NCBI GenBank assembly: GCA_947044365.1
Contig: OX345637.1
Coordinates: 10,745,576 to 10,809,575 of the forward strand
Direction: 5' to 3'
Length of the DNA stretch: 64,000 nt
Origin: Petrosia ficiformis
Lineage: Eukaryota > Porifera > Demospongiae > Haplosclerida > Petrosiidae
The translations under genes and the position numbers were made by a program. A model generated the notes under the pieces. That model was not told where the DNA came from, ran no database searches, and saw nothing but the letters and a program-made list of their open reading frames with translations. Shown piece after piece: positions 1 to 64,000 of this stretch (positions are counted from its first letter, which is position 1; every line of letters starts with the position of its first letter).

Positions 1-934
1 GTAGTATTAGCTCCACCTCTATAATTAATTATAATTGTCATAGATATAATTTACTCTCCCCTACTGGTATACGTTATGTAAGCTGTATATATGGCATTTA
101 TTGTGGGTTCAACATAAATTAGCATATTGTTCGTTGTTTGAAAATTTTAGTGTTGTTTTAGCTAACTACAACTAAAACCCCTTTTAGTAAGGCATTTTGA
201 CTTTAGTTAGCTAAACTATAACTAAATTGCAAGTCTGCAGCAATAACTATAACTAGCTAACTGAAATCAAAATTTGCCAGTAATTGACACATTTAGTTAG
301 TTAACTAAATATTGTAAGTGTAAAATTATTTTAACTATAAATAAAATTGTGAGAAACTAGTTGTATTATCACTAAAAGCGGTCACACTGAAGCAACGCTA
401 TTTGGAATCTCTGTGCCGAGGGACCCGACACAGGTTGTTTTTGTGTATGGGGATATCAAACGGAATTTCCATAAAAGGACTTTTACTGTTAATAACTGAG
501 ATTTCTGCGAAGATTTCATGATTTCAGCAACTGAAGTGTACAAGTTTTCGGCACTGTGTTGCTATTGGTCATCATAAAGCAATTAGAGATACTTTTTTTT
601 CCATATATCTTGTTACAGCCCAACCCACAGGACCATCCCAATGATTGGTTTCTCACAGGTTCGATGTATGCTTATATATTTGTTTGTGTCACATTTGTGT
701 ATATCTATTGTATATGTAGTTAATCATTCCAAGGGCTTGGTCAATTAATGGGTGCAACGCATAATAAAACATGCACTCAACCAGTAGGAAGAAAGCTGCT
801 TGTAGCTTATGTAGAAACTGCAACTAATCCCTGTTCTATCTGAAGTATATATTCCTAAGGTTCTAGAAGATTCCTACAAAGTTAAGAAGAGTAGATAATC
901 AAAATAATAGGCTGTTGTGCTTCAGTCAGCCTGG

Positions 935-987
935 ATTACTGAATGTTACACACCATGCACAAAGCATGGTGTGTAACATTCAGTAAT
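935..987. repeat. Perfect 24-bp hairpin
   Basis: Two 24-bp arms (935-958 and 964-987) are perfect reverse complements around a 5-base loop, ACAAA. The hairpin sits about 60 bp before the Ig exon of copy 1 and replaces the end of the foldback element found there in copy 2. Confidence 0.85.
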
Positions 988-2008
988 ACTAGTACTTGTA
1001 CTTGTTTTATTCTCCAATAAAGTTAACTCAAACTCTAACATACAGGTGTTCAGTTTTCATTTATTCCATCTCAAGCTATTAAGCAGTGTACAAGTGTTCA
1101 GTGGATAATAATGGAGTAGTCATTAATTGGCTTGTGAATGGCAATTCCTCAACTGATTCTTCTATCACTAATCTTGGGATAATCACGAATGGTTTTGGTA
1201 CACAGGATTCAAGTCTCGTTATACCAGGAAATCCTGAACTAAATATTACTATAGTGAGATGTATTGCATCAGGACAGGTTGATATGATGGGGTATTTTAA
1301 TACAAGTAGTGCTACATTGTTTATACAAGGTATGACATGGGACTTATGTCACTACAATTGATAATAAAAAAGTATGACCGAATAAATTGTCACTATAGGT
1401 AAACCTGATCCTGTAGATTTGACTTGTGTTATCAGTTTACTATACACTATTCAGTGTAACTGGAACACTCCATATACTATACCTGAATTCACAATATCAA
1501 AATATAATATTAATATCACTAATGAAGATGAACTTGTTAAACAAGCATCACTAACCGGAACACTTGATACTCAATACACATATAATGTTAGTGAGTTTGG
1601 TACCTATACTATCAGTATAACAGCTGTTATAAGTGAAGATCTGGAGGGAGAAAGAAATGAAACTAGTATAAACATTACAACAGGTACTATGTATAATGTA
1701 CTTACTAAATATAATTTACTAGTAAATTATATTTGAATAGATGTTGTCAGTAATTATTACTATTCTATTGTTTATAGTACATATAATGAATCCTGATATT
1801 GGAATTAGACTTGAAAATAGAAATTGGATGATAAATGCTACTATTAAAGTGAGTTATTGATACCAAGTAAGAATGTTATAGATTTAATTGCATATATCAC
1901 TTGATATTCTAGTGCATTTACACAGATAACTGTGCATTAAATAGTTAATATTCTTAAGTGTGCATTACGTACTAATAGCTCTGATACTCTATTAATATAC
2001 TATTATAG

Positions 2009-2281
2009 GTATAGTATTGGCCGATTGACAAAAGTGTAGCAACACTCAGTTTTATTATATGTGTAATATAAAATTTAGACTGCTTATATACATGTAGCAA
2101 CATGAAATTAAACTGACTAGACACAATACTGTAAATGTACAATGAAATTATAAGAAAGAGACAATCATCTGAAGACATTGTGAGATACAATGACAATTAT
2201 AATAAACTAATAACACATAGAAGACTATCTGACTGAACAACAATAACAAAGTCAATGTTCTTAACCACATTATTACAATAG
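2009..2281. repeat. Insertion in the fourth receptor intron, copy 1
   Basis: Copy 4 has a short intron ending ACTATTATAG directly before the exon that begins GATACTATTC. In copy 1 about 273 bp separate that same TATTATAG from the exon and end in a second acceptor, ACAATAG. Equivalent insertions are 12215-12488 (copy 2) and 22015-22242 (copy 3). It gives two candidate acceptors, only the second of which fits the exon. Confidence 0.6.
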
Positions 2282-2881
2282 GATACTATTCTCATGAATC
2301 CACAACCTAGTGTAATATATGTATGTATTACTGAACTGAGTGATGAATCAGGATCTTGTGTGTATAACAGAACAGGTATTATAACACAATATTCAACAGT
2401 AATAACAGGAGAGATTAATGTTGAGTTTCTGAATGATAATACAAAATGGAGTGTCATTATAGTTTTGATATACGAGACTGGATTGGAAGTTGTTTCCAAT
2501 TTTCAAAACAATATAAGTGAGTATAATAACATATTTCAAATAATAAAGAATGAGTATATACACAGGTACATTTGATGTACAAAGAGGAGATGTAGTTGTA
2601 CGAGACTCCACAACAGGACTAGTTTGTTTCACAAGTATATTTGTTGAAGGAAGTCAGTCATTAGGATGTTCCATTGAATACCTGTGTACAAAGACTGAAT
2701 ATAATGGTCAACTCAATATCAATAGGTCCTTGGGTAGCCAGAATGTTACAAAGTGTATAGATGGAATTTATACTAGTGATTATAACATATCATTTTATGA
2801 TATTGAACATGATGGTGTTATCAGCAACCAGCCAGCTTATCAGTTAATACAACAAAGCGTTGATGGACTGTCTCCTCCAAT

Positions 2882-2960
2882 CATGTCGTCATCATCATTA
2901 TCATCATCACCATCATTATCATCCTCATCATTATCACAGACAAGCATGACAATGTCATCT
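2882..2960 (+). repeat. Trinucleotide-rich stalk of copy 1
   Basis: Imperfect (TCA)n/(TCATCA)n DNA encodes the poly-Ser membrane-proximal stalk. The matching tracts in copies 2 (13091-13200), 3 (22846-22890) and 4 (63860-63960) differ in length and composition: Ser-rich, shortened, or Ser-Pro-Thr. Slippage here would change stalk length without breaking frame. Confidence 0.7.
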
Positions 2961-4094
2961 ACACCTCTTGAATCTCCAACTATTGGTAGACAAGAAGGTA
3001 TGATATGCAATCACTTATGAAATATTCATTATATTTATTAATAATAACAGATGGTGGACTATCATCTACAATAATAGTTATAATTGTGACTGTTATAGTT
3101 ATTGTGATATTTATTATTGGTGAGTTTATTAAGTTGTTATTAACACTTAATGATTGTTATAAATTAATATTAGTGATTGTTTTGGTGGTAATTAAAGGCA
3201 AAAGTAAAGATTTAAAACCATCAGGTGAGTATAATTATATAATTACATAATATTCCTTGATTTCATGACAGTGACTTTACTTGTATAGTTACAGTAATGT
3301 ATTATGATGATACTACTAGCAATGAAAATAAGAGTAATGACGAAGTGAGTAATCAATATATGTATTTCTATATGAAAGTATAATATACATTTAATAATTC
3401 ATGTACGTACACAATCTGTATGATGACATGTATGGTGAAAATGTGAGTGTTGTGTTTCATTATTATTTTATAACACTTTCTATATATATACCAGTGTCGT
3501 AACTATGTTGAGACAGAGGAGGCAAATGCCTTCTCGCTTTTTCGTGAGGTACTTCCTCTAGCTCATTTACCACACCCCCTGATTATAGTGGGTGGTGAAT
3601 ATTACTAGTGCATTTATAATTATGGCTCAATAAAGCTTGTAAGAAAAGGTCTAGTGGAGCTACAGTGCTGCTATCACATGTTTCTTTCCAAGAATAGCAA
3701 AATTTTAACAAACTTATTATTCAAAAGTAAGTAATAGGAAAAGTAGGTAAAATAAAATTATTGATTTTTATTTTTCAAATGATTATATATATATAATTAT
3801 ATACATAATTATAATTATTATATATATAATGTATGTGTGGTGCTGGAATGAAACATCAAACGAGACTTGGGTAAGTTCCAAATTGGATCAATGCCTCCTC
3901 CCTTCCAAAATCCTAGTTACCCCTTGTATACATGTTTGTACAATAATTACAATATAATATAATTATAAGATATACTGTGTGATCAATATAATTATTTATT
4001 ATTAAACAGCATTCTTCTAATTATATACTAGCTCAATACTGTGGACACTACAGTACATTCAAATACTACTATACCTGCCTTTCATTTATGGTGA

Positions 4095-5240
4095 TGTGGA
4101 TCCTACAATCCAACCCGTCAACAGTTAATGAACCACAACATGTACAACAAATTAGGACAGCATGGAAAATGTTAACTATATTAACATCTCTGTGTGATCC
4201 TATAAAATATGTAATTGTTTATATTTATATGTATTTATAGTTTATGCCTTTTTCTTATTATCATAATATTTGATTAATGTTAATTAATTAATAAGCCACA
4301 ATGGTACAAAGAATCTACAACAGACATGGGCTAGTCATGCATGGTAAATGTCATCACATCAGTCATAGTTCTCTTATTGAAAGAGGTCTTCTATAATTAT
4401 GAGATAGTAATCTGTTCTACTACTTTAACATAATGAATGTCTAGTGGACAAGGATGCTGTTAATCAGGAGGAATGTATAACTACAATCAATTAGTTAATG
4501 TCTATTAACCAGTCATGAACTAACTAACCTATGTTGTATAAATAATGTTCTCAGTTTCATCAGCCTTTGCCTAGAGAAAGAACAATATGATCGTGTACAC
4601 ATGTAACTAGTATGATGTCAGGGAGTGATTTGTGAACAGCTTGAGAAGACATGTTTATATAACCCTGAAATTAACCTATTACTACACCACTATTATTCTA
4701 TGAGAATACATGTAAGCATGTGACCTTGCATGTCAAGTGCAAGTCACTAACAACCTCTAATCAATAACTCCCACCTACATACCAACTTGTAATCAATAAT
4801 TCACACCAATGTGCATGGATAAATTAACATCTTGCATCCATATAGAAAATGTTATTGCTATCACATTGTAAACTCTAAAATTATAAACTACATGTAGCTA
4901 AGTACCTTGATGTGGATAATTATTAATTACCTTATTTTGCTACAAGTTCATGGAGCAAAGACCAAACTTGCACCATTGTGTAATGTAAAACATCTATGAT
5001 CATCATGTTTTGTTTAACAGCACACTATCAGGTTTTGGATTACCTATAGGATTACAAGTCATGGAATACTCCCAAGATGGTCAAATGTCTGGGTTGTAAA
5101 CACAGTTGTATTCACAGTAGATAACCAGAACAAAACACATTAATATATAATTATATTAATATTACACAATTACCTATATATAGCAATCACTTGAAACAAA
5201 ATTAATTTAGCTTTGACAACACTTCCAGTTATTCCTAATT
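4095..5240. other. Unit-1 spacer with remains of the Death-domain exon region
   Basis: Right after the stub stop, sequence matching the far 3' end of copy 3's Death-domain exon appears (ACAGTTAATGAACC, then GTACAACAA), followed by its 3' flank. The intervening coding part is gone. The rest is AT-rich spacer conserved in units 2 and 3, with no convincing gene. Confidence 0.6.
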
Positions 5241-5248
5241 ATTATGAT

Positions 5249-8929: not shown

Positions 8930-11900
8930 ATGTCTTGTACAAAACGAAACTACAGTATTGAGATAATGCTGTGGATGTGTATTTTGCTGTCAGCAGCTGT
9001 AACTCCATTACATGGTACGGTCATATCAATAACGAAGCATCTTGAGCACACACATTTGTGTTTTAACACTATCATGTATTAATTTGTGCATCACCAGTGT
9101 TGTGCATGTGGATAGTGTAGTATCTCAAAAATTATGAATCAGAGCAACAAACTATTTGATTTGTTTAACAGACTTTGTTTATAGCCAGTGAATATATTAC
9201 ATTTAGGACTGGTAGCTATGACGTGTAAAGAACACACAAGTATAAAAGCAAGCTACACTAAGTGATACTGCTAAAATGACTTAAGTCAATGCTGTATTGA
9301 TACTGTATTAATTGAAGGAAGCTATATACCGAAGCAAGAAATGTTACCAGAGTATTAGCTCCACCTCTATAATTATAATTATCATAGATATAATTTACCC
9401 TCCCCTACTGGTGTACGGACTATTATTATCTATTATTATGTAGGCTTTATATATGGCATTTATTGTAGGTTCGGATATATACATAAATTCATTAACCATG
9501 TCCTAATAATAAGCCTATTATTCATTGTTTGGAAATTTTAGTGTTTAAACTTTTAATCACTATAACTAAAACCCCCGCATTTTGATTTTTAGTTAACTAA
9601 ATTACAAGTCTGCAGCAATAATTAAAACTAACTGAAATGAAAATTTGCCAGTTAGTTAACTAAAAACTAAAACCCTTTTAGTATTGTAAGTGTAAAATTA
9701 TTTTAGTTGATTAACTATAACTAAAATTGTGAGAAACTAGTTGTAAAGTGGTCACACTGAGCACTATTTGGAATCTCTGTGCCGAGGGATCCGACACAGG
9801 CAAACATAAAAGAACTTTCATGACTTCAACCACTAAAGTATACAAAATTTCAGCCCCATGTTTACTCGTCCAAGTCAAGTAGTGTAGTGAAATAAATATA
9901 GCTATATATAGGTGAACTTAGAAAGAGAAAAACAGAGAAGAAGCTATAGAAATACAACTAGTGTGATCAAAGTTATAAAGATGCTAAGGTGGGTGTTGTC
10001 ATTAAACACTGTACAATCAAATGGTCACCTTGCTTGAACTCATATGTGCTCTGCAGTTTTCATAACTAATTTAAACTGGTCTAGCATTTCCAATGGGCAA
10101 GTGAATCTGATTGGTTGGAATAATTATAATTACCAAAATGCTTTTTGACCCTTCCTCTGCCAACCAGCTTATCTCAAAGGACAAGGGACTAGCACACTAG
10201 ACTAATAGGAACTACATTGCAAAACATATACAACAAGCATTAAGAATGGAAATACATGTATAAGTAAATATAATGATTTGTTGGGTATCAGACACGTGAA
10301 AGTTGTTATTGGTCATCACAAAGCAATTGGCAATACTTTTTAAACATGAATCTTGTTATGGCCCAGTCCACAGGGCCATCCCTATGATTAGTGCTCGAAT
10401 TAAGCGTATATGGAAGCATACGCCGTATAGATTGTTCTGAAGTTGTTTAAAAATCATTTACTTTGTAAAAATAATTGCTAAAAATATTAATGGGTGTAGT
10501 CAAAAAAGCATGGGTGCGACGCATAATAAAACATGCACTCAACCAGTAGGAAGAAAGCTGCTTGTAGCTTATGTAGAAACTGCAACTATTAGCTATCTGA
10601 AGTATATATTCCTAAGGTTCTACAAGATCCTTAAAAAGATAAGAGTAGATAATCAAAATAATAGGCTTTTGTGCTTCAGTCAGCTATGATTACTGAGTTT
10701 TGGACACCAAAAAGCAATCATTGGGACATCTTTGCTCTATAGTTATATCTTGTTTTTATTAACCCTTGTTGTACATGTGAAATATCACTTAGTCTTGATT
10801 ACATCTTATATTGTATATATATATACAGGTGTTCAGTTCTCATTTATTCCATCTCGAGCTATTACTATACAACATACAGCAGTGTACAAGTGTTCAGTGG
10901 ATAACAAGGAACTAACAATTCAATGGACTGTGAATGAATCACTCTCAACTCTTCCTTCTATTATTGATCTTGGAATAGTCACATATGGTCATGGTACACA
11001 GAATTCAAATCTCACTATACCAGGAAATCCTGAACTAAATAATACTATAGTGACATGTATTGCATTTGAATTGGATGGTTTTACACAACATGCTGTTAAC
11101 ACAACTAATGCTACATTGTTAATACAAGGTATGGTAATGAGTGTTGTTTTGTCATCTAATACTCAATAACTGTTATTTTTGATTGATGCTAAGCAAGATA
11201 TTACTTTATTATAACTTATTTTTATGTTTGTTTAGTTATAATAAAACCATATTATAGTATTTATTTTAATTATAGCAGTGATATAATTATGTATTGTCAT
11301 CAATTCACTCCTAAATAGTTATGTGTATGAAATATCAGTAATATAATATATAATATACAATAATCACCATATATACATATGTCCTGATGTACAACAGCTG
11401 ATAGTCTTGTGTACAGTACTATATTGATACACAATATTATTGAGACTGAGTTTAGAGTAACTTCAGGTTTAAAGAAAGGTCCTGATTATTTTGTTCACAA
11501 AATGTATAATATTGAATTTTTATAAATCTATAAACCTGTTCCATGATCGGTCAACTGTTCATAATACATGAATTTGTGACCCCCATATATATTGTTCACT
11601 ATAGGTAAACCTGATCCTGTAGATTTGACTTGTGTTATCAGTTTACTATACACTATTCAGTGTAACTGGAACGCTCCATATACTCTACCTGAATTCACAA
11701 TATCAAAATATAATATTAATATCACTGATGAAGATGAACTTGTTAAACAAGTATCACTAACTGGAACACTTGATACTCAATACACATATAATGTTAGTGA
11801 GTTTGGTACCTATACTATCAGTATAACAGCTGTTATAAGTGAAGATCTGAAGGGAGAAAGAAATGAAACTAGTATAAACATTACAACAGGTACTTTGTAT

Positions 11901-13861
11901 AATGTACTTACTAAATATAATTTACTAGTAAATTATATTTGAATAGATGTTGTCAGTAATTATTACTATTCTACTGTTTATAGTACATATAATGAATCAT
12001 GATATTGGAATTAGACTTGAAAATAGAAATTGGATGATAAATGCTACTATTAAAGTGAGTTATTGATACCAAGTAAGAATGTTATAGATTTAATTGCATA
12101 TATCACTTGATATTCTAGTGCATTTACACAGATAACTGTGCATTAAATAGTTAATATTCTTAAGTGTGCATTACGTACTAATAGCTCTGATACTCTATTA
12201 ATATACTATTATAGGTATAGTATCGGCCGATTGACAAAAGTGTAGCAACACACAGTTTTATTATATGTGTAATATAAATTTAGACTGCTTATATCCATGT
12301 AGCAACAAGTTAATTAAACTGACTAGACACAATACTGTAAATGTACAATGAAATTATAAGAAAGAGACAATCATCTGAAGACATTGTGAGATACAATGAC
12401 AATTATAATAAACTAATAACACATAGAAGACTATCTGACTGAACAACAATAACCAAAGTCAATATTCTTAACCACATTATTACAATAGGATACTATTCTC
12501 ATGAATCCACAACCTAGTGGAATATATGTATGTATTACTGAACTGAGTGATGAATCAGGATCTTGTGTGTATAACAGAACAGGTATTATAACACAATATT
12601 CACCAGTAATAACAGGAGAGATTGATGTTGAGTTTCTGAATGATAATACAAAATGGAGTGTCATTATAGTTTTGATATACGAGTCTGGATTGGAAGTTGT
12701 TTCTATTTTTCAAAACAATATAAGTGAGTATAATGACATTTCAAATAATAAAGAATGAGTATATACACAGGTACATTTGATATACAAAGAGGAGATGTAG
12801 TTGTACAAGACTCCACAACAGGACTAGTTTGTTTCACATGTATATTTGTTGAAGGAAGTCAGTCATTAGGATGTTCCATTGAATACCTGTGTACAAGAAC
12901 TGAATACAATGGTCAACTCAATATCACTAGGCCTTTGGGTAGCCAGAATGTTACAAAGTGTATAGATGGAATTTATATTAGTGATTATAACATATCATTT
13001 TATGATATTGAACATGATGGTGTTATCAGCAACCAGCCAGCTTATCAGTTAATACAACATAGTATTGATGAACTGTCTCCTCCAATTTTATCGTCATCAT
13101 CATTATCATCATCACCATCATTATCATTCTCAGCATTATCACAGACAAGCATGATAATGTCATATTTATCACAGACAAGCATGACAATGTCATCAACACC
13201 TCTTGAATCTCCAACTATTTTTAGACAAAAAGGTATGATAATGATGTATAAAACAATCACTTATGAATATTAATTATATTTATTAATAATAACAGATGGT
13301 GGGCTATCATCTACAATAATAGTTATAATTGTGACTGTTATAATTATTGTAATTGTGGTGATAATTATTGGTGAGTTTATTAATTAACACTTAATGATTG
13401 TTATAAATTCCTATTAGTGATTGTTTTGGTGGTAATTAATGGCAAAAGTAAACCATCAGGTGAGTATAATTATGATAATTATATAATATTCTTGATTTCA
13501 TGACCGTGACTTTACTTTTATAGTTACATATAAGAGTAATGACGAAGTGAGTAATCAATATATGTATTTCCATATGAAAGTACATTTAATACACATGTAC
13601 ATACACAATCTGATAATGACATGTATGATGAAAATTTGAGTGTTGTGTTTCATTATTATTTAATGACACTTTCTATATATATACCACACCCCCTGATTAT
13701 AGTGGGTGGTGAATATCACTCGTGCATTTATAATTATGGCTCGATATGGCTTGTAAGAAAAGGTGTAGACCGTGTAGTGGAGCTACAGTGCTGCTATCAT
13801 ATGTTTCTTTCCCAGTAAACAAAGAAGTCCAAAAATAAGTAATAGAAAATGATTATATACA

Positions 13862-13916: not shown

Positions 13917-14412
13917 CTATTATATATACATATAATTATGTATATATATAATTATATTAATGTTCAGAAAAAAAAACTTGTGTTATTACTTAAATCTTAA
14001 ATGAAAATGAGGCACCTAGAATTACAGATCCCACGTATATATCTGATTGTGCTACTATGATTACATACAGTTATCTGGAAATAGAATCCTGCCAGCTAAC
14101 TGGTGGTTTCTGTTCTTATGTACCTCGTGTGGTGCTGGAATACAACATCAACGAGACTTGGGTAAGTTCCAAATTGGATCGATGCGTAACAGAGATGAAT
14201 GACCCTTTTTTTGATGAATGACCCTTTTCTTCCAAAATCCTAGTTACCCCTTGTATACATGTTTGTACAATAAATACAATGTAATAGATATACTGTGTGA
14301 TCAATATAATTATGTATTATTAAACAGCATTCTTCTAATTATATACTAGTTCAATACTGTAGACTCTACAGTACATTCAAATACTACTATACCTGCCTTT
14401 CATTTACGGTGA
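8930..14412 (+). CDS. Ig-FN3 single-pass receptor copy 2, short tail
   Basis: Splice model: 8930-9014, 10829-11128, 11605-11889, 11984-12054, 12489-12723, 12771-13232, 13296-13370, 13418-13459, 13524-13546, 14350-14412. Phases fit throughout and give about 546 aa. Exon 1 encodes a signal peptide (MSCTKRNYS start, hydrophobic MLWMCILLSAA core) ending in phase 1, which matches the Ig exon. The Ig domain has the Cys of YKCSV, the Trp of IQW and a second Cys in TIVTC. The FN3 domain follows (DLTCVIS to TYTISITAV), then two unrecognised modules, a Ser-rich stalk, a Val/Ile TM helix and a very short cytoplasmic end. The stalk contains a local duplication (LSQTSM twice). The tail exon stops after 20 codons, so no signalling domain remains. 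It could be a decoy or pair with a partner; that is inference. Confidence 0.75.
10355..10760 (+). mobile_element. Nonautonomous foldback element, family F, in intron 1 of copy 2
   Basis: The left end resembles TATGGCCC then CCATCCCTATGATT; the right end is AAAGCAATCATTGGGACATC. The fuller relative at 45662-46076 has TIRs CATCCCTATGATTGCTTT and its reverse complement. No coding capacity. It lies immediately upstream of the Ig exon. Degraded copies occur at the same place in copies 1 (about 600-935) and 4 (about 62290-62375). Confidence 0.6.
13860..13960. repeat. (TA)n microsatellite in the copy 2 intron
   Basis: A long alternating TA tract with palindromic TATATAATTATA flanks lies between the last TM-side exon and the tail stub of copy 2. 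It is shorter in copy 1 (3785-3825). Confidence 0.85.
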
Positions 14413-17400
14413 TGTGGATCCTACAACCAACCCGTCAACAGTTAATGAACCACAACTTTTACAACAATTAAATTAGGACAGCATGGAAAATGTTAACTAT
14501 ATTAACATCTCTGTGTGATCCTATAAATATTTAATTGTTTATATTTACATGTATTTATAGTTTATGCTTTTTTCTTATTATTATAATATTTGAATTAATT
14601 GATTAATGTTAATTAATTAATAAGCCACATTAGTACAAAGAATCTACAACAGACATGGGCTAGTCATGCATGGTTTAGCTACTTGAAGAATTTTCGCAAT
14701 TTTCATTAACATTTATTATGCATAATTACACAGTAATAGTTGGTCAATTAGTTTAATATTAAATGTCATCACATCAGTCATAGTTCCCTTATTGGGAGAG
14801 GTCTTCTATTCTATATAAATCGATTCTTTTTTGAGACAGGAATCTGTTCTTGTACTACTTTAACATAATCAATTTCTAGTGGAAACAAAACAAGGATGCT
14901 GTTAATCAGGAGGAACGTACAACTACAATCAATTAGTTAGTATCTATTATCATGAATTAGTACTAACTAACCCATGTTGTATAAATAATGTTCTCAGTTT
15001 CTGCCTAGAGAAATAACAGTATGATCGTGCACACATGTAACCAGAATGATGTCAGGGAGTGATTCGTGAACAGCTTGAGAAGACATGTACACATTACTAT
15101 ACCACTATATTGATTTTTCCATGAGAATACATGTAAGCATGTGACCTTGCATGTTGTCAGTTACAAGTGCAAGTCACTTAACAACTTCTAATCAATAATT
15201 CACTACATGGACACTCTAATCAATAACTCCCACCTACATACCAACTTCTAATCAATAATTCACACCAATGTGCAAGTCCTGTTGGATAAATTAACATCTT
15301 GCATCCTATAGAAAATGTTATTGCTATCATTGTGGTTTCATTCAAATTCATGTTGTAATCATAAAATTATTTACTTTATGCAGTGTTGAAATTTATTTAG
15401 TACAGATTCAATCTCAAATTTCAGTATTAGTAATGTTCAATGCTACCTTGAACAAAGGAGTGTACACTCATGTATGTGTCAATGCCATATGAACCATCAC
15501 TTATAGCAGTTAATACATCTTGAGAAATAGTTTACTGTAGTAAGCTGTAGTCTACATCTGATAGTGGACAACCATTTTCTGGAACTATTACTGCTCATCT
15601 TCCTAGGTAGTCAATGGTCCATCCCAATCTACACCATAGTTGCTATCCTGATTAAATAGTAACATACATAAATAAATAATTAATTTATTGCACTCTATAG
15701 CTGTGAAGTCACAACACACACTATTTGGGTAATCACCCACCAATAAAAAATTGACAGCAACAGATTTCATTATGGATAAAGAACGATCACATATATAATA
15801 CATAAATGCATAGGCTGAGTTGTGGGAAAGAATTGTGAATATTTATAATTACATTTAATCATGTGATGCAAGGATTATAGCATAGGCTTATGCAAAGTAA
15901 TATACAGGGATATAGTATGTTACTATAAAATAATAATTATTTGATTATTAATATAATAACTACTATGCATTGTTCTGGTGTGTACCATGTTCCATAGGTT
16001 CATGATTCAAAAGTTTGGTTACAGACAGAATTTTCCAACAATATTATTATCCTTCTTATGTCCTTGTTTTACAGCTAAGATAGGCCGTATACACAACTTA
16101 TTACCGGGTAATATATTTCAATTAACTGAGAAACTTCATTATTTATGGTGATCAACAGGTGTCAATATTCATTACTGAAAAGAAAAGTTTATATATACAC
16201 ACACGCATTAACTATGCCAAATGCTATTCATTCAACCATCTATTCATCAGCATCCATTCATCAGCATCCATTCATCACTATACTTGTCTCTGTCATTCTT
16301 AATTGTACCAGACGTACACATAACAAGTGAATATAAAACTTACACAGTGTGATATGTAAATATATTCACATGAATCAATAACTATTGTCAGTTGTCTTAA
16401 ATCACAAAGCAACAGTCTATTGTGAACGTTTATCAATTTTATCATTATCACATGTATTAGTGATGTTTGTAATGACAGAAGACTAAACATGACTGATCAC
16501 ATCCTCATTAATAAACTGCATATTTAGTGTGAAAAATAATTACCATTAGCATCCATACAGACTTACAGTCAGTGTTTGTGATGTGGCAGGAGGGTAACAC
16601 AAAGCTACACTTGAGCTATATTAACATCTCACGGTACATCAAAACAATAAAGCAATGGCAATTAAGGATTTTAGCAACTAACACAATGATCACTAAAATT
16701 AGTAGCTATCACATAAAATATATTTCGTGACCATTTTGTTAAGCTATTAAGAGTGTCTCAGAAATTTGCTAAAATTATTAATGCATGCTAAACTTAAATG
16801 TTTAAAATTCACTAAATGCAATTAACAGTAGGCTTAAGGTATGTGAAAATTGAGAAAGAAATTTTCGATCATTTAAATACTCATCATTTGACTGTTTTAT
16901 ATGTGAAGCTACTGAAATGGGGAGTCAATGTCCCCCTCTAAATGAAACCTGAAAAGATTACACATTTAGTACACTTAAATTGTGGTTTATTAAAAGATAA
17001 CAAAAAAGTTGTTATTTCAACCAATGACGTTAGTTGATTACATGTCAACATACTGAATTGAGGTGTAGAAGAGTAGGTTTGTATTCTTATCTTTTGTTAA
17101 TGTGTTACATCACCACTCCAATGGTTAATTTACATAAGAACTGATAATAAGGCAGCATATATATTGGACTATTAATATAATTAATACTACCCAGATCTTA
17201 TGATCAAGGACATTGCTCCTGTGTACCAAGAGGACAAGGTAGAATTAGGACAGAATCCCTTTGTGTGGTATCCCTTGGGGTTTGAGTATGGTAATGCCAT
17301 TTACAAATTGCTGAACTGCTTTAATAAACAATAAATGTCTGCTATAAACAACGCATTAACAGGAATTAGCAAAATATATATAAACAGAGTAATAAGTATA

Positions 17401-18508: not shown

Positions 18509-21500
18509 ATGTCTTGTACAAAACGAAACTACCGTACTGGGATAATGCTGTTGATGTGTATTTTGCTGTCTGCAGCTGTAACTCCATTACATGGTACGAT
18601 CATATCAGTAATGAAACATCTTGAACACACACATTTGTGTAACACTATCATATATTAATTTGTGCATCACCAGCGTTGTGCATGTGGATAGTGTAAGTAT
18701 CTCGAAAATTATGAATCTGAGCAACAAACAATTTGATTTTTGTTAACAGAGTTTGTTTATGGCCAGTGAATATATTACATTTAGGACTGGTAGCTATGGT
18801 GTGTAAAGAACACGCAAGCATGAAAGCAAGCTACACTAAGTGATATTGCTAAAGTGACTTTTAAGTCGATACTGTATTGATACTGTATTAATTGAAGGAA
18901 GCTATATACAGAAGCAAGAAATGTTAGTATTAGCTCCACCTCTATATAATTATAATTATCATAGATATAATTTACCCTCCCCTACTGGTGTATGACTATT
19001 GTTGTGTAAGCTGTATATATGGCATGATTATGTGTTCGGTTATAAATATAAATTAATTAACGATGTCCTAATAATAAGCCTATTATTCATTGTTTGGAAG
19101 TTTTAGTGTTGTTTAACCCTTAGAGCACTGAGCCTGTTTTTCAAAATTCTTCCCATTTCCAACACTGGCGACTCTATTGCATATAATGTTTCTACCGTTC
19201 ACTTTCTCTACCCCAAACTTGGCTCCTTTTCCGACATGGAGTACTACTTCCACCAACTTGCTTACCGGGACTCGAAAGTCCCCAAGCGCTTCGTAGGATC
19301 AAATCAAATGCAGTGCTCTCCCTCTTTTGACTGGAACTGGGGCTAACAAAATGAATCCACTGCATGTTGGCACCAGCTACACCCACGATTTCAGGTTTCA
19401 CAGCAAGGAAAATGCCTCAGGTACCCACCAGAGTGTGTGGGCGGGGTCAAAAAATGCAAAATTCGTCCGAAGCGAGGGGGCTGCGCCCCCTTCCAACCCC
19501 CACATTAACGGGGGGACACCCCCCTTTAAAATTCCCCCCCGTATGTGTTATTTAGGCCAAAGGGCGGCTGAAAAACAATCAACTTTTTTAGCCACGCTCA
19601 TCAGCTTGCGCCTGACGCCAATTACAAGCATTTGGACAGCTTTGTGTAGCTAGGAACAGACGGCGAACCACGTAGGGGTGAAATGTCACATATATGTGAC
19701 ATCGGTCCTCTAAGGGTTAAACTTTTAATCACTATAACTAAAACTCCCTTTAGTAAGGCATTTTGACTTTTAGTTAACTAAACTACAAGTCTGCAGCTAA
19801 TTATAACTAACTGCAATGAAAATTTGCCAGTATATAGCTAATTGACACTTTTAGTTAGTTAACTAAAAACTAAAACCCTTTTAGTATTGTAAGTGTAACA
19901 AGTGTATATAAAGAAAAAAACATCCCTATGATCGCTTTACAAATTTAAGTGAAGATATGACTTCTTTGTGGTGTGCAGAATTCAGTAATCATGGCTGACT
20001 TTATCAAGCATGAAAGACAACAGCTTATTATAGTTAAAATAATATCTACTCTCCTGACCTTTCAAAGGACCTTGTAGAACTTTAGGAATATATTTCAGGC
20101 AGAATAGCTAGCTATTAGTTCCAGTTTCTACGTAAGCTCAACAGCTTTCTTTCTGCTGGTGTGTAGAGCTTGATCGCGCGTTCTTTTACGCGCCACGCCC
20201 ATTAATTGACCGAGCCCCCGGGAATGACGCAACTTCCTTAACTACGTATACAACGCATAGTCGCGCAAGTGACACAAACATATATATATATATATATATA
20301 TATATACATTAAACCCCGTGGAAAGCAATTATAGGGATGGCCCTACGGGCCATAAAAATATTTTAGTTGATTAACTATAACTAACATTGTGAGAAAGTAG
20401 TTGTACTATATAACTAAAGTGGTCACACTGAAACAGCACTATTTGGAATCTCTGTGCTGAGGGATCTAACACAGGCAAACATAAAAGGACTTTCATGATT
20501 TCAGTCACTGAAGTGTACAAGATTTCAGCCCCATTTTGGACCCCTCAGTCTGTATGTGCAACAGTAATAAAGTGAATTATTGTAATAATTACTTGTCCAA
20601 GTAGTGTAGTGAAATCTCGACCTTAGTTTGTGTGTATATATGTGTGTGTGTGTGACACTGTGTATGTCATGCTTCAGGATTGCAAATGTATGACCACAAC
20701 GCATATTCATGAGCCTCAACAAAAGAAACTATAAGAAAGGAACATATGTAACGCCTATATATAGCTACACTTAGAAAGAGAAAAACAGAGAAGAAGCTAC
20801 AGAAATACAGCTAGCCAGTCAACAGTGATCAAAGTTATAAAGATGCTAAGAGTGGGCTTTGTCACTAAACACTGTACAATCAAACGGTCACCTTGCTTGA
20901 GCTCGTATGTGCTCTGCAGTTTTCTACAGAGCAATCATATGGAATTAGGGATACTTTTTATATACTTATCTTGTTTTTATTAACCCTTGTTATACAGGTG
21001 TTCAGTTCTCATTTATTCCATCTCAAGCTATTACTATACAACAGACAGCAGTGTACAAGTGTTCAGTGGATAATGATGGAGTAACTATTCAATGGTTTGT
21101 AAATGAATCACTCTCAACTCGAACTTCTATTGCTAATCTTGGAATAATCACATATGGTGTTGGTACACACAATTCAAGTCTCACTATACCAGGAAATCCT
21201 GAACTGAATAATACTATAGTGATATGTGTTGCATCAGGACTGGTTGATGGCATGCAATATATCAATTCAAGTGAAGCTACATTGTTTATACAAGGTATAA
21301 TTATTATGTTGTACATTGGCTGATATAACTTGCAAAATAATTATGGTAGTAGTATTTGCATAATCGAGTTCATAACTGTGGTATTGTTCATTATTCACTA
21401 TAGGTAAACCTGATCCTGTAGATTTGACTTGTGTTATCAGTTTACTATACACTATTCAGTGTAACTGGAACACTCCATATACTACACCTGAATTCACAAT

Positions 21501-34794: not shown

Positions 34795-35219
34795 TTTTCT
34801 AATTATTTAAATTCAATTAATAAATAACAAATCATTTTTTTTAATAATGAAGGTTTCAAACATGAATGAAACCTTCTGAAAAATTTTTACATGTTCAGTT
34901 TCTTCAAACATGGATGATGGAACTTTCTGAAATATCAAAATTTTTACTTGTTCAATTTTTTTTTAAATTTGGGATTTTTTGAAATATCAAAATTTATACT
35001 TATTCATTTTTTTTCAATGTTGGCTTTTTCTGAAATTATAGATGTTGAAATGTTTTGATGGTTAGTATTTTCTTATTGTTCTAATATTTTGATTGTTAAT
35101 TTACCATTTCCAGAAATTTCACCAGTCAAATTTTCTGAAGTTTCAAATTTTCTCACACTCATAAATAAGCTTGAGTAAAAAATTCAGGATTTCAGAATGG
35201 CCACAAAAGTACACTGGTT

Positions 35220-36065: not shown

Positions 36066-36406
36066 ATCAAAATGTATTAGTGGTGTCACTGATTGTAGTA
36101 TTCATGTCAATACTTAGTTTAGTTCTGACATTTGTTTTACTTGTTTTGATTTATATCTATGCAAGAAAAAAAAAGAGGAGGAGGAGAGGAACAACTTTGA
36201 ATGTGAATGTAAGTTGAACTTTATAAGCTTATTGTGCACACGTTTTATTTCTTCTTCCTATAATAATAATTAATGTAACTGTAGATCTGTTACATATGCA
36301 TTTTGTTTCATAAAAACAGATAACAGATAATTTACAAAATGAAGTTGTTTTTTTAAACCAGAAGACACAAGAGGTTGTGAATAATGAATATGGAGTTGTA
36401 TCATGA
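36066..36406 (+). pseudogene. Orphan TM and short-tail exons of a receptor paralogue
   Basis: Exon 36066-36208 encodes a clear TM helix (VVSLIVVFMSILSLVLTFVL then LVLIYIY) with a basic stop-transfer run RKKKRRRR. It enters in phase 1 like the receptor TM exons and ends in phase 0. Exon 36320-36406 continues to a stop and carries NNEYGVVS, a YxxV site. No Ig/FN3 exons are found upstream on this strand, so it is a fragment of a lost paralogue or an alternative 3' end for some distant gene. Function unknown. Confidence 0.55.
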
Positions 36407-37509: not shown

Positions 37510-37510
37510 T

Positions 37511-40113: not shown

Positions 40114-40230
40114 CTATAGTGAATATACAAGTGCATGGATGACTTTTTTCTTGAGTATATATAAATTATAATACCTCCAGTGTACATGGAAGGTAGATGA
40201 CAATCATTACTACTCATGTTTTCAATGGCT

Positions 40231-41378: not shown

Positions 41379-43761
41379 TTAATGATTATCTTTATAACAC
41401 ATGCCATATGCTGGGCTTTGACTCATAATGATGTTCATTGTTGATGTTTTTGGTAAATTCTGGTATGGCAAATGTACATCATTGATTCTCTCATATTGTG
41501 GATCTTGTAGTTCCTGGTTGACTTGGGTTTCAGTTATCATTTGTCCCTGTGACTCTAATGTTTGAACAATGTCATTACCTGTATACAAGGTAAACAATAT
41601 ATAGGTATGTGATGAAAACTAAAAATGAGTAAGAGGCATATATTCTAAATTTGGATATTGCCTGGTTTTTGTACTACACCAGTAGTGGTTCAGATTTAAT
41701 AGGTGTTCTGTAAATTCATAATCTGTGGGTATTTATTGTTAAAATTTGGAACATCACCAGATATTAAGCCTTATTTCATCTTTTACAATCTATTTATCAT
41801 AACATTTACCAATATTAAATTTTCTTTTTCTATGACAAAATGTACCAATGTATATTCCTACAGCAAGCACCAATAACAATGAAGCCAATACTATGAGGAT
41901 ACCTGTTGAATGATGATTAAAATCACAATAATTATATATATTATTATATATATATTAGAATTGTATTAGAATTGTGTTCAAATGAATTTCTCTCGTGTAT
42001 AGAAATTGTTATGATATCAATATACCTCCTATGATAACTAGATAGTCGCTGCCTTTATTTCTTGGAGAACCAGTTACGTTATCTGTGTGTAATAAATTAT
42101 AATAGATCATACATTTTATAGAGAAATCACTCACTGTTATCATAGACACAATTCTTATATGTGCTGCTATATGTAACAGTGGCAATGCCCTCAATTGATT
42201 CCCTTGAAAATATTGGTGTGTTACTTATGTAAATGTTGTTTATAATTTTGTGCAAACTGTTTGTTATCTGACCATCCTTTGAAATCAAATAGAATTGAGC
42301 AGAATATGTTCCTTCAGTCACATCTCTGATACACTGGGTATTGTTTAAGCACATAAAACAAGAACGTAAAATTACAACACTGGTATTCCATATTATATTT
42401 TCAGCAAGAAATAATACAAAACATCCACTTGCTTGACTGCCAGCTACTAAGCCACAATGAAAACACACTTGTTCTATACTTGGTTGTGAAATTGCAGAAT
42501 ATTGAATATCATTTGTATCTGAAATTTAATAATAATTGATGTATGTATATATGTTACAGCAACTCACTTAAAAATAAGGTTTCAGAATATATGATAAACT
42601 TGGTCCCATAATACAAACTCAATTTAGCTTCCCACTCCATGTTGTCTCCAATGAGTATTGTTGTTGATGTTTTTATTGTACTATTACTTACAATTAGTAG
42701 AATTCCCACGGTTTCTATAACTACAGGATTTGTAGTTGATACGAATAATACTTTCATTGAAGCATTTATCTCATGACAGTATGGTAAGTTCTGAGAAACA
42801 AATACAATATTATAGCACAAGGATATAACATTTGCTTAAAGTTTGGTTTCCATTATGGCACAATGTTAAATTTTACAGTGATATTCTTACCAGAGCTCTT
42901 AAGTATAGAATCCAATGGTTAATTCCTTCTTTTACAAAACTCACTTCTGTGTCAATCGAAATATCTATTTAATAGATCTTGTTTATATGCATGCATACAT
43001 GATAACTTGCTTATACACTGACTTTGTGGCAGTTTGATTTGGGTATCACTCTTGACTCCCTCTCCAGCACTGTTCAGACCACTTACACTGATACTATATA
43101 CTCCAACTGTAGGTGGACAATACTGCAATGTTGTTTTGTTGGTCATTGTACTCTGTTGAGAGGTAATATTCACATTAAAACCTGATATATGTACTCCAGG
43201 CAAGCTGTATGGTTTAGTCCAGGAACATGTAAAGCAACAAGGTGTAGATCCTACACATGTTAGGTCACCAACTGCTGAAAGAAGTCCTGAATATGAAATA
43301 TAAAGGGCATGCAGTTACGAGAGAAGATTTGAAGTTTTACCTTGTATAAATAATGTCACATTTTGTGTCTTAAGAAATAAATTTCCATTAACTAATCCCG
43401 ATGCAATACAAGTCACTATGGTATTATTAAACTCTAGCTGGCCAGGAATAGTAAGGTTTGATTTCAATTCAGCCACTCCATGTGTGACTACACCAAGATC
43501 AGCAATACTTGAATCAGTTGATACAGTTCCATTGATAGTCCATTGAACAGAAATTCCATGGTGATCTACAGAACATTTGTAGATTGCTCTCTGATGTAAA
43601 GTAATGTTGGGAGAAGGACTGAATGAGAGCTGTATGCCTGTATATAGTTGTATAAAAATCATCATCAGAATAGCATTGAAAGAAAGTGATTGTACACAAT
43701 AATTAAAAATACCTCCTGCATATTCAAAGAGCAAAATGATAATCACTAAATTCATTCTCAT
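41379..43761 (-). CDS. Ig-FN3 single-pass receptor with ITAM tail
   Basis: Splice model: 43761-43713, 43637-43341, 43286-43023, 42964-42891, 42790-42568, 42518-42135, 42082-42026, 41902-41810, 41578-41379. The sum is 1641 nt, exactly 547 codons with stop. Residues: signal peptide 1-16 (MRMNLVIIILLFEYAG); Ig 17-115 (YKCSVDHHG, SVQWTING, TIVTCIASG); FN3 116-203; unrecognised modules 204-302 and 303-430 (VCFHC matches the VCFTC of the tandem copies); TM about 444-465 (YLVIIGGILIVLASLLLVLA) then CHRKRK; tail 481-546. The tail holds Y509-E-R-I, six residues, Y519-Q-N-L, a canonical ITAM, plus a third Tyr (AYGMCY). ITAMs are phosphorylated by Src kinases and bind Syk-type tandem SH2 domains, so an activating role is likely by analogy. 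Exon order and lengths mirror the tandem copies (Ig exon 297 nt, as in copy 3). Confidence 0.85.
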
Positions 43762-61749: not shown

Positions 61750-61780
<31 letters not shown>

Positions 61781-64000
61781 ATTATATACATGAGAGGTTA
61801 AAAGAATTAATGTGATCACGTTGTGCTTTGCCAGTGCTGTGGATGTGGTAGTGCAGTATCTCCTTAAAAAATGATGTAGACAAATCTATCAGACTTTGTT
61901 TATATTATATGTCCAGTGAATTTAGGACTGGTAGCTATATGGTGTGTAAAGAACACACAAGCATAAAGAAAGCTGAATACACTTAGTGATACTGCTAAAA
62001 TCAATGCGGTACTGATACTGTATTTAATGAGGAATGTTTTAGTTTGTAGCTGTTGGGCCAAAACTGGACTGACCAGAGAGTATTGGCTCGAACTCTATAA
62101 TTATAATTGTAGATATGCTACAATATAATTTACCCAACCCTACCCAAACAACTATTGTTATGTAAGCTGTATATTATTACATTGTATTGTGGTATATATA
62201 TGTGTAAATTCATTAACCATTTTCAAATAAGTATATTATTGTTTGTTTGGAATCTCTGTGCCAAGGGGTTCGACATGGGTTGTCAAAATAATAGTAGTGC
62301 TTCAGGCATGAGAAAGTCAGCCATGACTACTAAATGTTGGACACCACAAAGCAATCATAGGGATACTTCCTTTTCTATCTACAGCATCTTGTTTTTATTA
62401 ATCCTTGTTATACAGGTGTTGAGTTCTCGTTTATTCCATCTCCTAATATTACTATACAACAGACAGCAGTGTACAAGTGTTCAGTAGATAATAATGGAGT
62501 ATCCATTCAATGGAATGTGAATGAAGCTACCTCAACTGATTCTTCTATCACTGATCTTGGAATAATCACATATGGTCAGGGTACACATAATTCAAGTCTC
62601 ACTATACCAGGAAATCCTAAACTGAATAATACCATTGTAATATGTATTGCATCAGGATATGTTAGTGATGTTGGAAATGATATTATTTACATTATTTATT
62701 CAAAGTAGGAGCTCAATGTTGTCATGTGACTCAAAATAAAATATGACTGTGCAATGAAATCAGATGATCATTGTAATTATTCATGATTTTATTCATTATA
62801 GGTAAACCTGATCCTGTAGATTTGACTTGTGTTATCAGTTTACTATACACTATTCAGTGTAACTGGAACACTCCATATACTCTACCTGAATTCACAATAT
62901 CAAAATATAATATTAATATCACTAATGAAGAAGAACTTGTTAAACAAATATCACTAACTGGAACACTTGATACTCAATACACATATAATGTTAGTGAGTT
63001 TGGTACCTATACTATCAGTATAACAGCTGTTATAAGTGAAGATCTGGAGGGAGAAAAAAATGAAAGTATTATAACCATTGAAACAGGTAAATTGAACAGA
63101 TGTTGTTATAATAATTACTATTCTTTTGTTTATAGTACATATAACAGACTATGATATTGGAATTAGAATTGAAAATGGTAATTGGATTATAAACACAATT
63201 ATAAGAGTGAGTCACTGATACTAGTAGCTGTGATATTCTATTAATATACTATTATAGGATACTATTCTCATGAATCCACAACCTAGTGGAATATATGTAT
63301 GTATTACTGAACTGACTGATAATTCAGGATCTTGTGTGTATAACAGAACAGGTATTATAACACAATATTCACCAGTAATAACAGGAGAGATTAATGTTGG
63401 GTTTCTGAATGATAATAAGATGTGGAGTGTTAATATAATTTTAATATATGATTCTGGATTGGAAATTGTCTCTAACAATTCAATGGATATAAGTGAGTAT
63501 ATAATCAAATATAAAATATATTTGATGACCTTGTATATACAGGTACGTTTGACATACAAAGAGGAGATGTAGTTGTACAGGACTCCACAACAGGACGAGT
63601 TTGTTTCACATGTATATTTGTTGAAGGAAGTCAGTCATTAGGATGTTCCATTGAATACCTGTGTACAAGGACTGAATGTAATGGTCAACTCAATATCAAT
63701 AGGCCTTTGGGTAGCAGGAATGTTACAAAGTGTATAGAGAGTATTTATACTAGTGATTATAACATATTATTTTATGATATTGAACATGATGGTGTTATCA
63801 ACTACCACCCAGCTTATCAGTTAATACAACACAGTAGTGAGGAAATGTCTCCTTCGATCATGTCATCATCACCATCACTATCACCATCGCCAACTCCATC
63901 ACCAACTCCATCACCATCATCATCATCATCATCACCATCACCAACACCACCAACAACATCACAGACAGGCACAACAATGTTACCAACACCTTCAGAATCT
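48757..64000 (+). CDS. Ig-FN3 receptor copy 4, partial, 13.6-kb first intron
   Basis: Exon 1 at 48757-48841 is an 85-nt signal-peptide exon ending in phase 1, almost identical to those of copies 2 and 3. The next matching exons are Ig 62416 to about 62692, FN3 62802-63086, 63136-63206, 63258-63492 and 63543 to the window end, which reaches a Ser/Pro/Thr mucin-like stalk. Intron-1 sequence homologous to the other copies resumes at about 61800, tying the two halves together. The Ig exon end looks damaged: the best donor (after 62692, GTAGGA) leaves phase 2 instead of phase 1, and the G-strand residues seen in the other copies are missing, so the spliced frame breaks unless another site is used. 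TM and tail lie outside the window. Functional status is uncertain. Confidence 0.6.
48876..49373. mobile_element. Elements D and C (locus 3), inverted relative to locus 1
   Basis: D (48876-48986, partly deleted) is followed by C (48990-49373). Together they are the reverse complement of 23969-24510. C ends ATAGCTAACAGAAACATCAA and TTTGATGTTTCTGTTAACTA. The shared compound arrangement shows D and C moved or were copied together. Confidence 0.7.
49385..49446. repeat. (TA)n microsatellite
   Basis: Alternating TA between element C and elements A/B, the same arrangement as at locus 1. Confidence 0.85.
49453..49684. repeat. Foldback elements A and B (locus 3)
   Basis: A at 49453-49576 is shorter than at locus 1, with part of the centre missing. 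B at 49584-49684 keeps both TIRs GTATGATGGTGACATC and GATGTCACCATCATAC. Confidence 0.78.
49728..49886. mobile_element. Inverted-repeat element with G-rich tandem
   Basis: Ends AGTTAAAGCACCGGT and ACCGGTACTTTAACT are near-perfect complements. Inner arms GAAAATATAGCAC and GTGCTATATTTTC pair too. One arm holds (GGGGGT)3, absent in the other, a likely local expansion with G-quadruplex potential. Confidence 0.75.
49887..50718. other. Intronic, no gene seen
   Basis: Contains a 28-bp direct duplication (ATCTAACAAGGTATATCTAA) at about 50249-50304. Otherwise AT-rich sequence without exons. Confidence 0.5.
50719..52268. mobile_element. Internally deleted derivative of the 31424-35219 transposon
   Basis: Same TIRs (AACCAGTGTACTTTTGTGGC and reverse complement) with its own 6-bp duplication GAGAGC at 50713-50718 and 52269-52274. 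It keeps exon 1 of the RING gene, then jumps to the 5' end of the transposase gene. About 2.2 kb between roughly 32436 and 34643 of the full element are lost. It cannot encode transposase but keeps the ends needed for mobilisation. Confidence 0.88.
51114..51833 (+). pseudogene. Fused remnant frame of the deleted transposon
   Basis: The first 200-odd codons match exon 1 of the 31819 gene, with few substitutions and a 12-bp deletion near 51366. After DSTVTR the frame enters the antisense of transposase exon 1 and continues 30-odd codons to a stop. RING and coiled coil are gone. The open frame is a consequence of the deletion; any function is doubtful. Confidence 0.7.
52385..54117. repeat. Higher-order tandem satellite, 175/178-bp units
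   Basis: The landmark GATCACAATATACGCTGATG starts at 52619, 52798, 52973, 53148, 53326, 53501, 53676, 53854 and 54029, spacings of 179, 175, 175, 178, 175, 175, 178 and 175. A diverged unit precedes at 52452. Two unit types alternate in a 178-175-175 pattern (variants CCGATTCATATGTATGCTAG and CATATTCACATGTATG), giving a higher-order period of about 528 bp. Confidence 0.92.
54197..60977 (-). CDS. PHD, DDE transposase-like, USP-like and Ulp1-like protein (large mobile-element gene)
   Basis: Many short exons read in order from 60977 to a stop at 54197; the joins I checked keep frame. The start ATG sits at an exon end, directly before a donor. Order: basic N-terminus (GRRKKYKICTKRLVELICLH); PHD finger 60240-59990 (LYCLCKKAYDER, MLMCNFCLQFYHLDCIGLD, YKCSLCE); long exon 59670-58468 with FCDATGTIV and MVIDRSLVL, then TSGAIEAWNGILK (about 57760), candidate D, D and E residues; basic RRPKKRKLPF, a likely NLS; USP-like peptidase (about 57160-55800) with YCWGNSVIQAL, NDAAEGLLIL, IHHGGTRGGTNSGHC and CWIHYNDSSVT; Ulp1-like peptidase (about 55550-54690) with MHCFDPVFLPKL, PVHLSSHWVLVV, YYIDHL and QMNSYDCGIYLL. 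The transposase superfamily is uncertain (MULE- or KDZ-like). It may be two genes rather than one. Confidence 0.7.
54691..55560 (-). other. Ulp1-like (C48) peptidase region of the large gene
   Basis: Visible catalytic set: His in SSHW, Asp in YYIDH, Gln in MHQMN and Cys in DCGI, in the order expected for SUMO proteases. A preceding segment (FDPVFLPKLKANGYHAV) matches the usual Ulp1 lead-in. Introns of 50-100 bp separate the exons. The family cleaves SUMO or related modifiers; the substrate here is unknown. Confidence 0.7.
55800..57163 (-). other. USP-like (C19) peptidase region of the large gene
   Basis: Cys box YCWGNSVIQALE, a QNDAAEGLLIL segment like the DAqEFL motif of USPs, a C-x2-C (GICSDCN), His box IHHGGTRGGTNSGHC and a W-x-YND segment near the end. 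The catalytic His lies in GHC where GHY is usual. Assignment rests on motif order and spacing only. Confidence 0.55.
60978..61795. other. 5' flank of the large gene, short degenerate repeats
   Basis: ATTACACAACATAACAC-like motifs recur irregularly from about 61105 to 61275. They may be subterminal repeats of the mobile element. I found no matching inverted repeat at the 54-kb end. (TA)n lies at 61755-61783. Confidence 0.45.
61796..64000 (+). repeat. Duplication unit 4 (partial, resumes after insertion)
   Basis: Sequence from about 61800 matches 9080-9300 of unit 1 (the intron-1 region just after the signal-peptide exon), then passes the shared landmark near 62079 and enters receptor exons from 62416. 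Its matching 5' part, the signal-peptide exon, is at 48757. The unit is therefore split by roughly 13 kb and cut by the window end. Confidence 0.75.

Follow-up and report, generated by a model that had tools for sequence, protein, structure and literature searches.

A clustered family of predicted Ig-FN3 receptors with Death-like and tyrosine-motif tails in the sponge Petrosia ficiformis

A 64,000-nucleotide stretch of chromosome 2 of the sponge Petrosia ficiformis (C2:10745576-10809575; hereafter the window) carries members of a clustered gene family in which a predicted ectodomain of immunoglobulin (Ig) and FN3 type recurs upstream of different cytoplasmic tails. We consider it reasonably probable that these loci are one germline Ig-FN3 receptor family, mostly spliced to a few signalling tails, for self/non-self recognition. 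The main ectodomain family is referred to as F1 and its relative as F2; L-numbers designate the other loci read, and w1 and w2 the remnants of copies 1 and 2. The genome searched comprises 191,215,263 bases in 29 contigs, of which C2 accounts for 15,999,405 bases.

Cluster extent and ectodomain architecture

A genome search with the FN3 exon returned 73 matches, comprising 58 F1 loci, 9 F2 loci (34–39% identical to the query), 5 second fragments and 1 stray match on C5. Nearly all F1 loci (56 of 58) fall within 10.45–11.37 Mb of C2, a span of about 0.92 Mb, with the remaining two at 11.83–11.84 Mb. Their orientation is nearly always plus up to ~11.05 Mb and minus over 11.23–11.37 Mb. A search with the F2 Ig exon returned 88 matches, of which 78 lie on C2 between 10.45 and 11.84 Mb; ten weak relatives of it (26–34%) at C2:13.0-15.1 Mb may represent another Ig receptor array. 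The block that runs from copy 3 and its Death exon through the YGVV and YEDV genes described below to the F2 gene is duplicated, in the same order, about 131–133 kb away. A third, diverged Ig-FN3 receptor gene, with weak profile matches, was seen at L036:4716-7235, with its own transmembrane (TM) exon and a PPPTYENI tail piece.

The original prediction proposed a common exon order and common phases for four plus-strand copies and one minus-strand gene of the window; the order holds, as do the phases where they were worked out. Exon order is common to copies 1–4, as far as each runs, and the minus-strand F2 gene matches it. Phases were worked out in copy 3 and in the F2 gene, where every internal junction is GT-AG. 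Copy 3 reads Ig-FN3-E4-M1-M2-TM-cyt1-cyt2-Dt-Death, with entry phases of 1,1,1,0,1,1 for Ig, FN3, E4, M1, M2 and TM. The E4 exon, which converts phase 1 to phase 0, is found in both F1 and F2. The F2 gene is a chain of signal-Ig-FN3-E4-M1-M2-J-TM-tail exons encoding a predicted 540 residues, with phases 0,1,1,1,0,1,1,1,1 from signal to tail. Copies 1–4 yielded no convincing signal exon, with only 1 kb upstream of copy 1 being searchable.

Structure prediction bears out the reading as Ig and FN3 for two parts of the ectodomain, returning an Ig fold for the Ig exon and an FN3 fold for M2, the last module. The AlphaFold model of the Ig exon (predicted local distance difference test score, pLDDT, of 95.3) matches NCAM domain 1 with a template-modelling score of 0.76, as well as many antibody V domains. 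In an alignment of 30 rows, C21 and C76 are invariant and W32 is kept in at least 90%. Fold, paired cysteines and core tryptophan thus place the modelled N-terminal domain in the immunoglobulin superfamily (IgSF), while the Pfam Ig_3 profile scores 17.3 on this exon, below its cut-off of 30. The second domain of F1 has profile matches to Ig_J and FN3_Tor_3rd, and that of F2 scores slightly under the fn3 cut-off (Table 1).

Two predicted tail chassis and the F2 tail

Downstream of the 58 F1 ectodomains lie either a Death exon (17 loci) or a second class of TM exon (29 loci); 12 loci have neither. The Death exon is on the same strand, 0.9–3.7 kb downstream. As originally proposed, a Death-like tail is joined to the ectodomain in copy 3, where predicted splicing proceeds in phase 0 and then phase 1. 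A complete gene of this class, L048:285-4580, runs open from signal peptide to stop over 759 residues with GT-AG introns. The distant genome matches of the Death exon coincide with none of the 150 places scored, out of 1013 candidates, for the Pfam Death profile (PF00531). Three partial matches (64–67%) to the Death exon of the cluster occur at C11:4.29-4.37 Mb.

The second TM exon lies ~0.9–1.4 kb downstream, and one of the 29 contains stops. It runs into an open stub, RKIEVLSKCIKN(Q/E)VRI*, with a GTGAGG or GTTAGG donor directly before VRI*, and a tyrosine exon, E/DDIHSDVNVDINPCYDSVQSNNQKTRMTMNPSYETVQNSTSDQLHIQTRQESHYENVNP, lies ~90 to 510 bases past this donor. The ‘stub’ end is probably intron read-through. 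We rejected the class-wide stub as a decoy, as in the genes read it is followed by a splice donor and an in-phase tyrosine exon. Among the 18 class-TM exons read, nine are followed by a tyrosine exon (one decayed, one partial and one cut at the locus end). The exon is also present in L023, which has no recognised TM exon, and at L036:8161-8337, beyond the third receptor gene; the L036 exon is perhaps a tail shared with that gene.

All three YxxV motifs of the tyrosine exon (YDSV, YETV and YENV) are kept in 7 of 7 full copies, one of which is the copy beyond the third receptor gene in L036. The last motif reads SHYENV in six of the seven, with S at −2, and there fits the consensus of the immunoreceptor tyrosine-based inhibition motif (ITIM), [SIVL]xYxx[ILV]; the exon also has two NPxY motifs. 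In L015 and L005 the tyrosine exon follows in phase 0 and the frames are open across nine exons. Their models are cut at 543 and 558 residues, before a stop is reached, L005 because the locus ends and L015 with CAA in place of the TAA of other copies. Of the 14 loci in this class whose Ig exon is open, 13 carry a class-specific signal exon, MSICILLLLIPITQ, one of them with a one-residue variant. Since tails and signal exons differ by class, the chassis have a common middle between distinct 3′ ends and, where these were seen, distinct 5′ ends. The ratio of nonsynonymous to synonymous differences per site (pN/pS) is 0.55 across seven distinct tyrosine-exon sequences, one of them partial, and 0.52 in a single pair of Death exons; both tail exons look constrained.

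The F2 gene of the window ends, as the original prediction had it, in a tail at 41379 bearing an immunoreceptor tyrosine-based activation motif (ITAM). Its YERI-x6-YQNL (YERI-NDVHLP-YQNL) fits the consensus YxxL/I-x6-8-YxxL/I. The pattern arose by chance in 635 of 100,000 shuffles of the F2 tail (0.6%) and occurs in 32 of 767 open reading frames, so that the ITAM alone is modest evidence. All three F2 tails read retain the YQNL and SPAY positions. Nine F2 M2 exons are intact, each with a downstream tail match, and a tenth is decayed; two of the tail matches are strong and seven weak (E-values of 0.012–0.22). The tail of the F2 copy at 10,654,394 is 90% identical to that of the window. As a trait of the family the ITAM is unsupported, being missing from two of the three F2 tails read. 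A profile scan of the F2 and copy 3 proteins gave no TIR or kinase match at E-values up to 1, and a database search with the F2 protein scored 7992 candidates and returned none at E-values up to 1, in a database that may hold few sponges.

Probable ectodomain exchange, proposed function and alternative explanations

Over the first 250 nucleotides of the FN3 exon, 27 loci have a mean pairwise identity of 0.989. In the same loci the flanking introns of this exon have identities of 0.49 and 0.70, the Ig exon 0.747 and the F-G part of the Ig exon 0.626. Near-identity of FN3 between such diverged introns points to exchange. Loci were labelled by their downstream tail for class tests, with 15 tyrosine and 6 Death loci available for Ig. 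Ig identity is 0.863 within the tyrosine class, 0.844 within the Death class and 0.847 between them. Nearest-neighbour tests gave P values of 0.15 (Ig), 0.57 (FN3), 0.23 (E4), 0.28 (M1) and 0.36 (M2), and a within-minus-between test gave 0.95 for FN3 and 0.14 for M2. As an individual case, L030, of the tyrosine class, and copy 2, with a Death remnant, lie ~0.48 Mb apart and are 97% identical in Ig and 78% in E4. Ectodomain pieces therefore appear to have been exchanged between chassis, most simply by gene conversion. A hinge at FN3 would suit an Ig head free of the tail together with E4 and M1 slightly tied to it; M2 fits such a hinge poorly. The sharp block of FN3 identity is otherwise unexplained in this analysis. 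A second sharp within-exon boundary was seen in M1 across F1 loci, where the first 140 nucleotides (22243–22382 in copy 3) are 0.972 alike and the last 95 are 0.817 alike.

The most variable parts of the Ig exon are the C-D region and the F-G tip. The remaining ectodomain exons have pN/pS ratios of 1.08 (FN3, on very few changes), 0.65 (E4), 0.60 (M1) and 0.52 (M2). For the Ig head, diversification is either relaxed or mildly favoured; its pN/pS, given below, falls short of showing positive selection.

The predicted combination of a shared ectodomain with different chassis in one cluster is what characterises paired receptors, and the layout resembling them that was originally proposed stands in part. 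It is upheld by 58 F1 and 9 F2 loci, by two recurrent chassis and by Ig, FN3 and M2 exons that are not significantly sorted by tail; of the five tails listed in the original prediction, two belong to other genes. The Death-like tail stands, as does the ITAM in the window F2 gene only; the YEDV and YGVV tails and the stubs do not, and the recurrent YDSV/YETV/YENV tail lies outside the window. Most likely, the cluster works like a clustered family of recognition receptors; we do not assign it to any named family of allorecognition or paired receptors.

We infer an immune role for the cluster, which might operate as follows. The ligand, on a microbe or a neighbouring cell, would be read by the N-terminal Ig domain, which varies most. 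The Death chassis would recruit a FADD/caspase-8-like complex, the tyrosine chassis (YDSV, YETV, YENV) would recruit SH2 or PTB proteins, and one F2 gene would add an ITAM, with the outcome depending on how these arms balance. Swapping of ectodomain exons from one chassis to another, probably through gene conversion, would ensure that similar ligands are read by the different arms. Possible partners are encoded elsewhere in the genome. SH2 exons at C12:5,536,177 and 5,533,798, on the minus strand, are followed on the same strand by kinase pieces at 5,532,386 and 5,530,883, all within 5.5 kb; by their order alone they are a candidate for a Syk-like gene. On C14, two SH2 domains share one 576-residue frame, at a spacing that would suit an SHP-2-like gene, and C4:4.12 Mb has two pairs of DED exons.

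Several observations weigh against reading the cluster as such a recognition family. The joining of ectodomain to tail is a prediction of splicing, made from genomic DNA, and several copies are broken. E4 and M1 are slightly closer within class (P = 0.012 and 0.015), a signal that strengthens to 0.003 and 0.001 with w1 and w2 included, and Ig tends in that direction too (P = 0.066, within-minus-between). The E4/M1 signal weakens the case for free exchange; Ig, FN3 and M2 stay without significant sorting. For the Ig exon, pN is 0.147 and pS 0.154, a ratio of 0.95 (bootstrap 0.71–1.27); the variable regions, picked after the variation had been seen, give 1.10 (0.77–1.58) and the rest 0.69 (0.42–1.15). 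Against PF00531 the Death exon scores 18.3 and 14.3 bits, under the gathering cut-off of 22.6, and its PDB matches, all five to FADD, are weak (E-values of 0.27–0.48). Of the six strict Death loci whose Ig exon is open, three showed the signal exon type of the Death class. The other nine of the 18 class-TM loci end 227–539 nucleotides past the TM exon, the longest spacing seen for a tyrosine exon being ~510, and L017, which ends at 539, reaches about as far as that longest spacing. The F2 tails of L046 and L048 read LYDAALHYQNL or LYDAPLHYQNL and have no first YxxL/I at ITAM spacing.

The same architecture could equip receptors for microbes or symbionts, with Ig domains binding microbial ligands and tails triggering death or phagocytosis, an alternative that we regard as possible but rather less than probable. 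It draws on the large copy number of F1, on the 112 bacterial bins recovered alongside the P. ficiformis genome, as given in PMC12648040, and on the response of Ig- and Death-domain genes to microbial signals that PMC6208332 describes for two other sponges; nothing in the sequence, however, separates microbial from allogeneic ligands. Within the recognition reading, a more specific proposal is tentative and somewhat doubtful: a sponge histocompatibility-like complex, in which gene conversion would shuffle a germline repertoire of Ig heads onto ‘kill’ (Death) and ‘restrain’ (YxxV/ITIM) chassis, and the near-invariant FN3 exon would serve as the hinge of recombination. If true, the logic of paired receptors would go back to the base of animals, and one head would be wired directly to death. 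An adhesion family lacking an immune role, in which tandem Ig-FN3 receptors are expanded and homogenised by ordinary gene conversion and tyrosine tails do no more than anchor or endocytose, seems unlikely. NPxY motifs can be endocytic, NCAM is among the matches and pN/pS is near 1 rather than above it, all as adhesion would have it; two distinct chassis on one ectodomain, one of them Death-like, and a peak of variation in the C-D region and F-G tip speak against it.

Read-through leaves open stubs that resemble one another from copy to copy, and some copies are dead, as would fit Death and tyrosine exons that are neighbouring genes or relics, with true products ending in the stubs. We hold this to be very unlikely, as phases and splice sites are consistent in copy 3, L048, L015 and L005 and the spacing is similar across dozens of copies. 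Damage is a matter of record (copies 1 and 4 are broken, as are 4 of the 17 Death-exon loci); nonetheless, an assembly artefact or a field of pseudogenes is highly improbable given that most exons examined are open, that 26 of 27 open Ig exons are distinct and that the tail pN/pS ratios look constrained. The published assembly has a quality value of 62.8, according to the part of PMC12648040 available.

Among known systems, the Hydractinia allorecognition complex (Alr) is likened to the cluster by description only: the available text of PMC12065747 reports ITAM and ITIM motifs in it. Alr members have low overall identity, whereas here one ectodomain, with an FN3 exon about 98% alike, sits on different chassis, one of them Death-like; the sponge cluster is known here from its sequence. 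In the Botryllus fuhc family, receptors of the Ig superfamily bear ITIM and hemITAM motifs and belong to an allorecognition locus; Botryllus is a chordate, and the portion of PMC12065747 available mentions no Death chassis. Sponge Ig-TIR receptors also place an Ig ectodomain on an innate-signalling tail, with 1 to 6 genes per species in the accessible parts of PMC6208332 and PMC12909245. They differ in their TIR tail and small number, the F2 and copy 3 proteins having no TIR match.

A literature search found no report of this cluster, nor of a paired-receptor layout in sponges, the subscription literature lying mostly outside its coverage. Vertebrate paired receptors (KIR, LILR, NITR) likewise have similar ectodomains on chassis with different signals, are clustered and are shaped by gene conversion. 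Their activating members often signal via adaptors through a charged TM residue, whereas by eye no charged residue lies inside three TM stretches here, and an independent origin is likely. The cluster would show the paired-receptor layout in a phylum for which no such report was found. The mechanisms of invertebrate allorecognition are called a mystery, with candidate proteins not conserved among sponges, cnidarians and ascidians, in the part of PMC12065747 at hand. A single locus of a sponge in which dozens of similar IgSF receptors sit on death and tyrosine chassis would be a concrete allorecognition candidate, testable with the existing RNA-seq and alternate haplotype described in the available part of PMC12648040.

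Features of the window

The coordinates of the features are collected in Table 1. Copy 1 is probably a pseudogene, since the gap in its Ig exon shifts the frame, and copy 4 looks broken from its sequence. The original prediction took short stubs to be the tails of copies 1 and 2. Both derive from an internally deleted Death tail, and the stubs are there because that tail was lost through the deletion; stubs as decoys by design were rejected on the same ground.

Table 1. Positions of receptor exons and neighbouring genes in the window
Feature	Position	Strand	Remarks
F1 copy 1, Ig to cyt2	1046..3344	+	Ig exon frameshifted by 13-nt gap relative to L049 paralog
Copy 1 Death-tail remnant	4032..4153	+	internal deletion
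F1 copy 2, Ig, FN3, E4, M1, M2, TM, cyt1	10828..13458	+	exons open; no convincing signal exon
Copy 2 Death-tail remnant	14393..14470	+	internal deletion
Copy 3 Ig exon	20998..21294	+	phase 1-1
Copy 3 FN3 exon	21404..21688	+	phase 1-1
Copy 3 E4 exon	21783..21856	+	phase 1-0; opening part of third module
Copy 3 M1 exon	22243..22477	+	phase 0-1; remainder of third module
Copy 3 M2 exon	22525..22917	+	predicted FN3 fold and Ser/Thr/Pro-rich stalk
Copy 3 transmembrane exon	22966..23043	+	
Copy 3 cyt1 exon	23102..23152	+	basic juxtamembrane
Copy 3 cyt2 exon	23209..23267	+	donor GAA|GTGAGT, phase 0; read-through gives short stub
Copy 3 tail exon Dt	24664..25006	+	phase 0-1
Copy 3 Death-like exon	25062..25348	+	up to stop codon
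Separate TM gene with YGVV tail	36074..36406	+	end read by eye
Separate small TM gene with YEDV tail	37831..40217	-	ends read by eye
F2 tail exon	41379..41578	-	YERINDVHLPYQNL, ITAM consensus
F2 transmembrane exon	41810..41902	-	
F2 J exon	42026..42082	-	juxtamembrane
F2 M2 exon	42135..42518	-	
F2 M1 exon	42568..42790	-	
F2 E4 exon	42891..42946	-	
F2 FN3 exon	43023..43286	-	Pfam fn3 24.2 bits, cut-off 25
F2 Ig exon	43341..43637	-	
F2 signal exon	43713..43761	-	MRMNLVIIILLFEYAGG
F1 copy 4, Ig to M2	62415..63919	+	Ig 3′ end degenerate; TM beyond window

Two further tails had been assigned to the ectodomain and were rejected as receptor tails. The YGVV tail belongs to a different TM gene on the plus strand; no convincing Ig or FN3 exon was found in the 4 kb upstream of this gene, in the window or in its L044 paralog. 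Upstream of that paralog, L044:3783-4124 is a cysteine-bearing open exon, perhaps of an unrelated ectodomain. The YEDV tail is part of a separate small TM gene that, read by eye, starts at 40217 and is not joined to an Ig-FN3 ectodomain; between a third YEDV copy and the F2 tail closest to it lie ~54 kb.

Two stretches, 31423–35220 and 50718–52269, look like mobile elements and have terminal inverted repeats (188 nucleotides, 98%, and 242 nucleotides, 100%, respectively); by eye the former stretch contains RING-finger-like and integrase-like reading frames. A tandem array at 52485–54267 consists of at least nine units of about 175–178 nucleotides, several of them near-identical.

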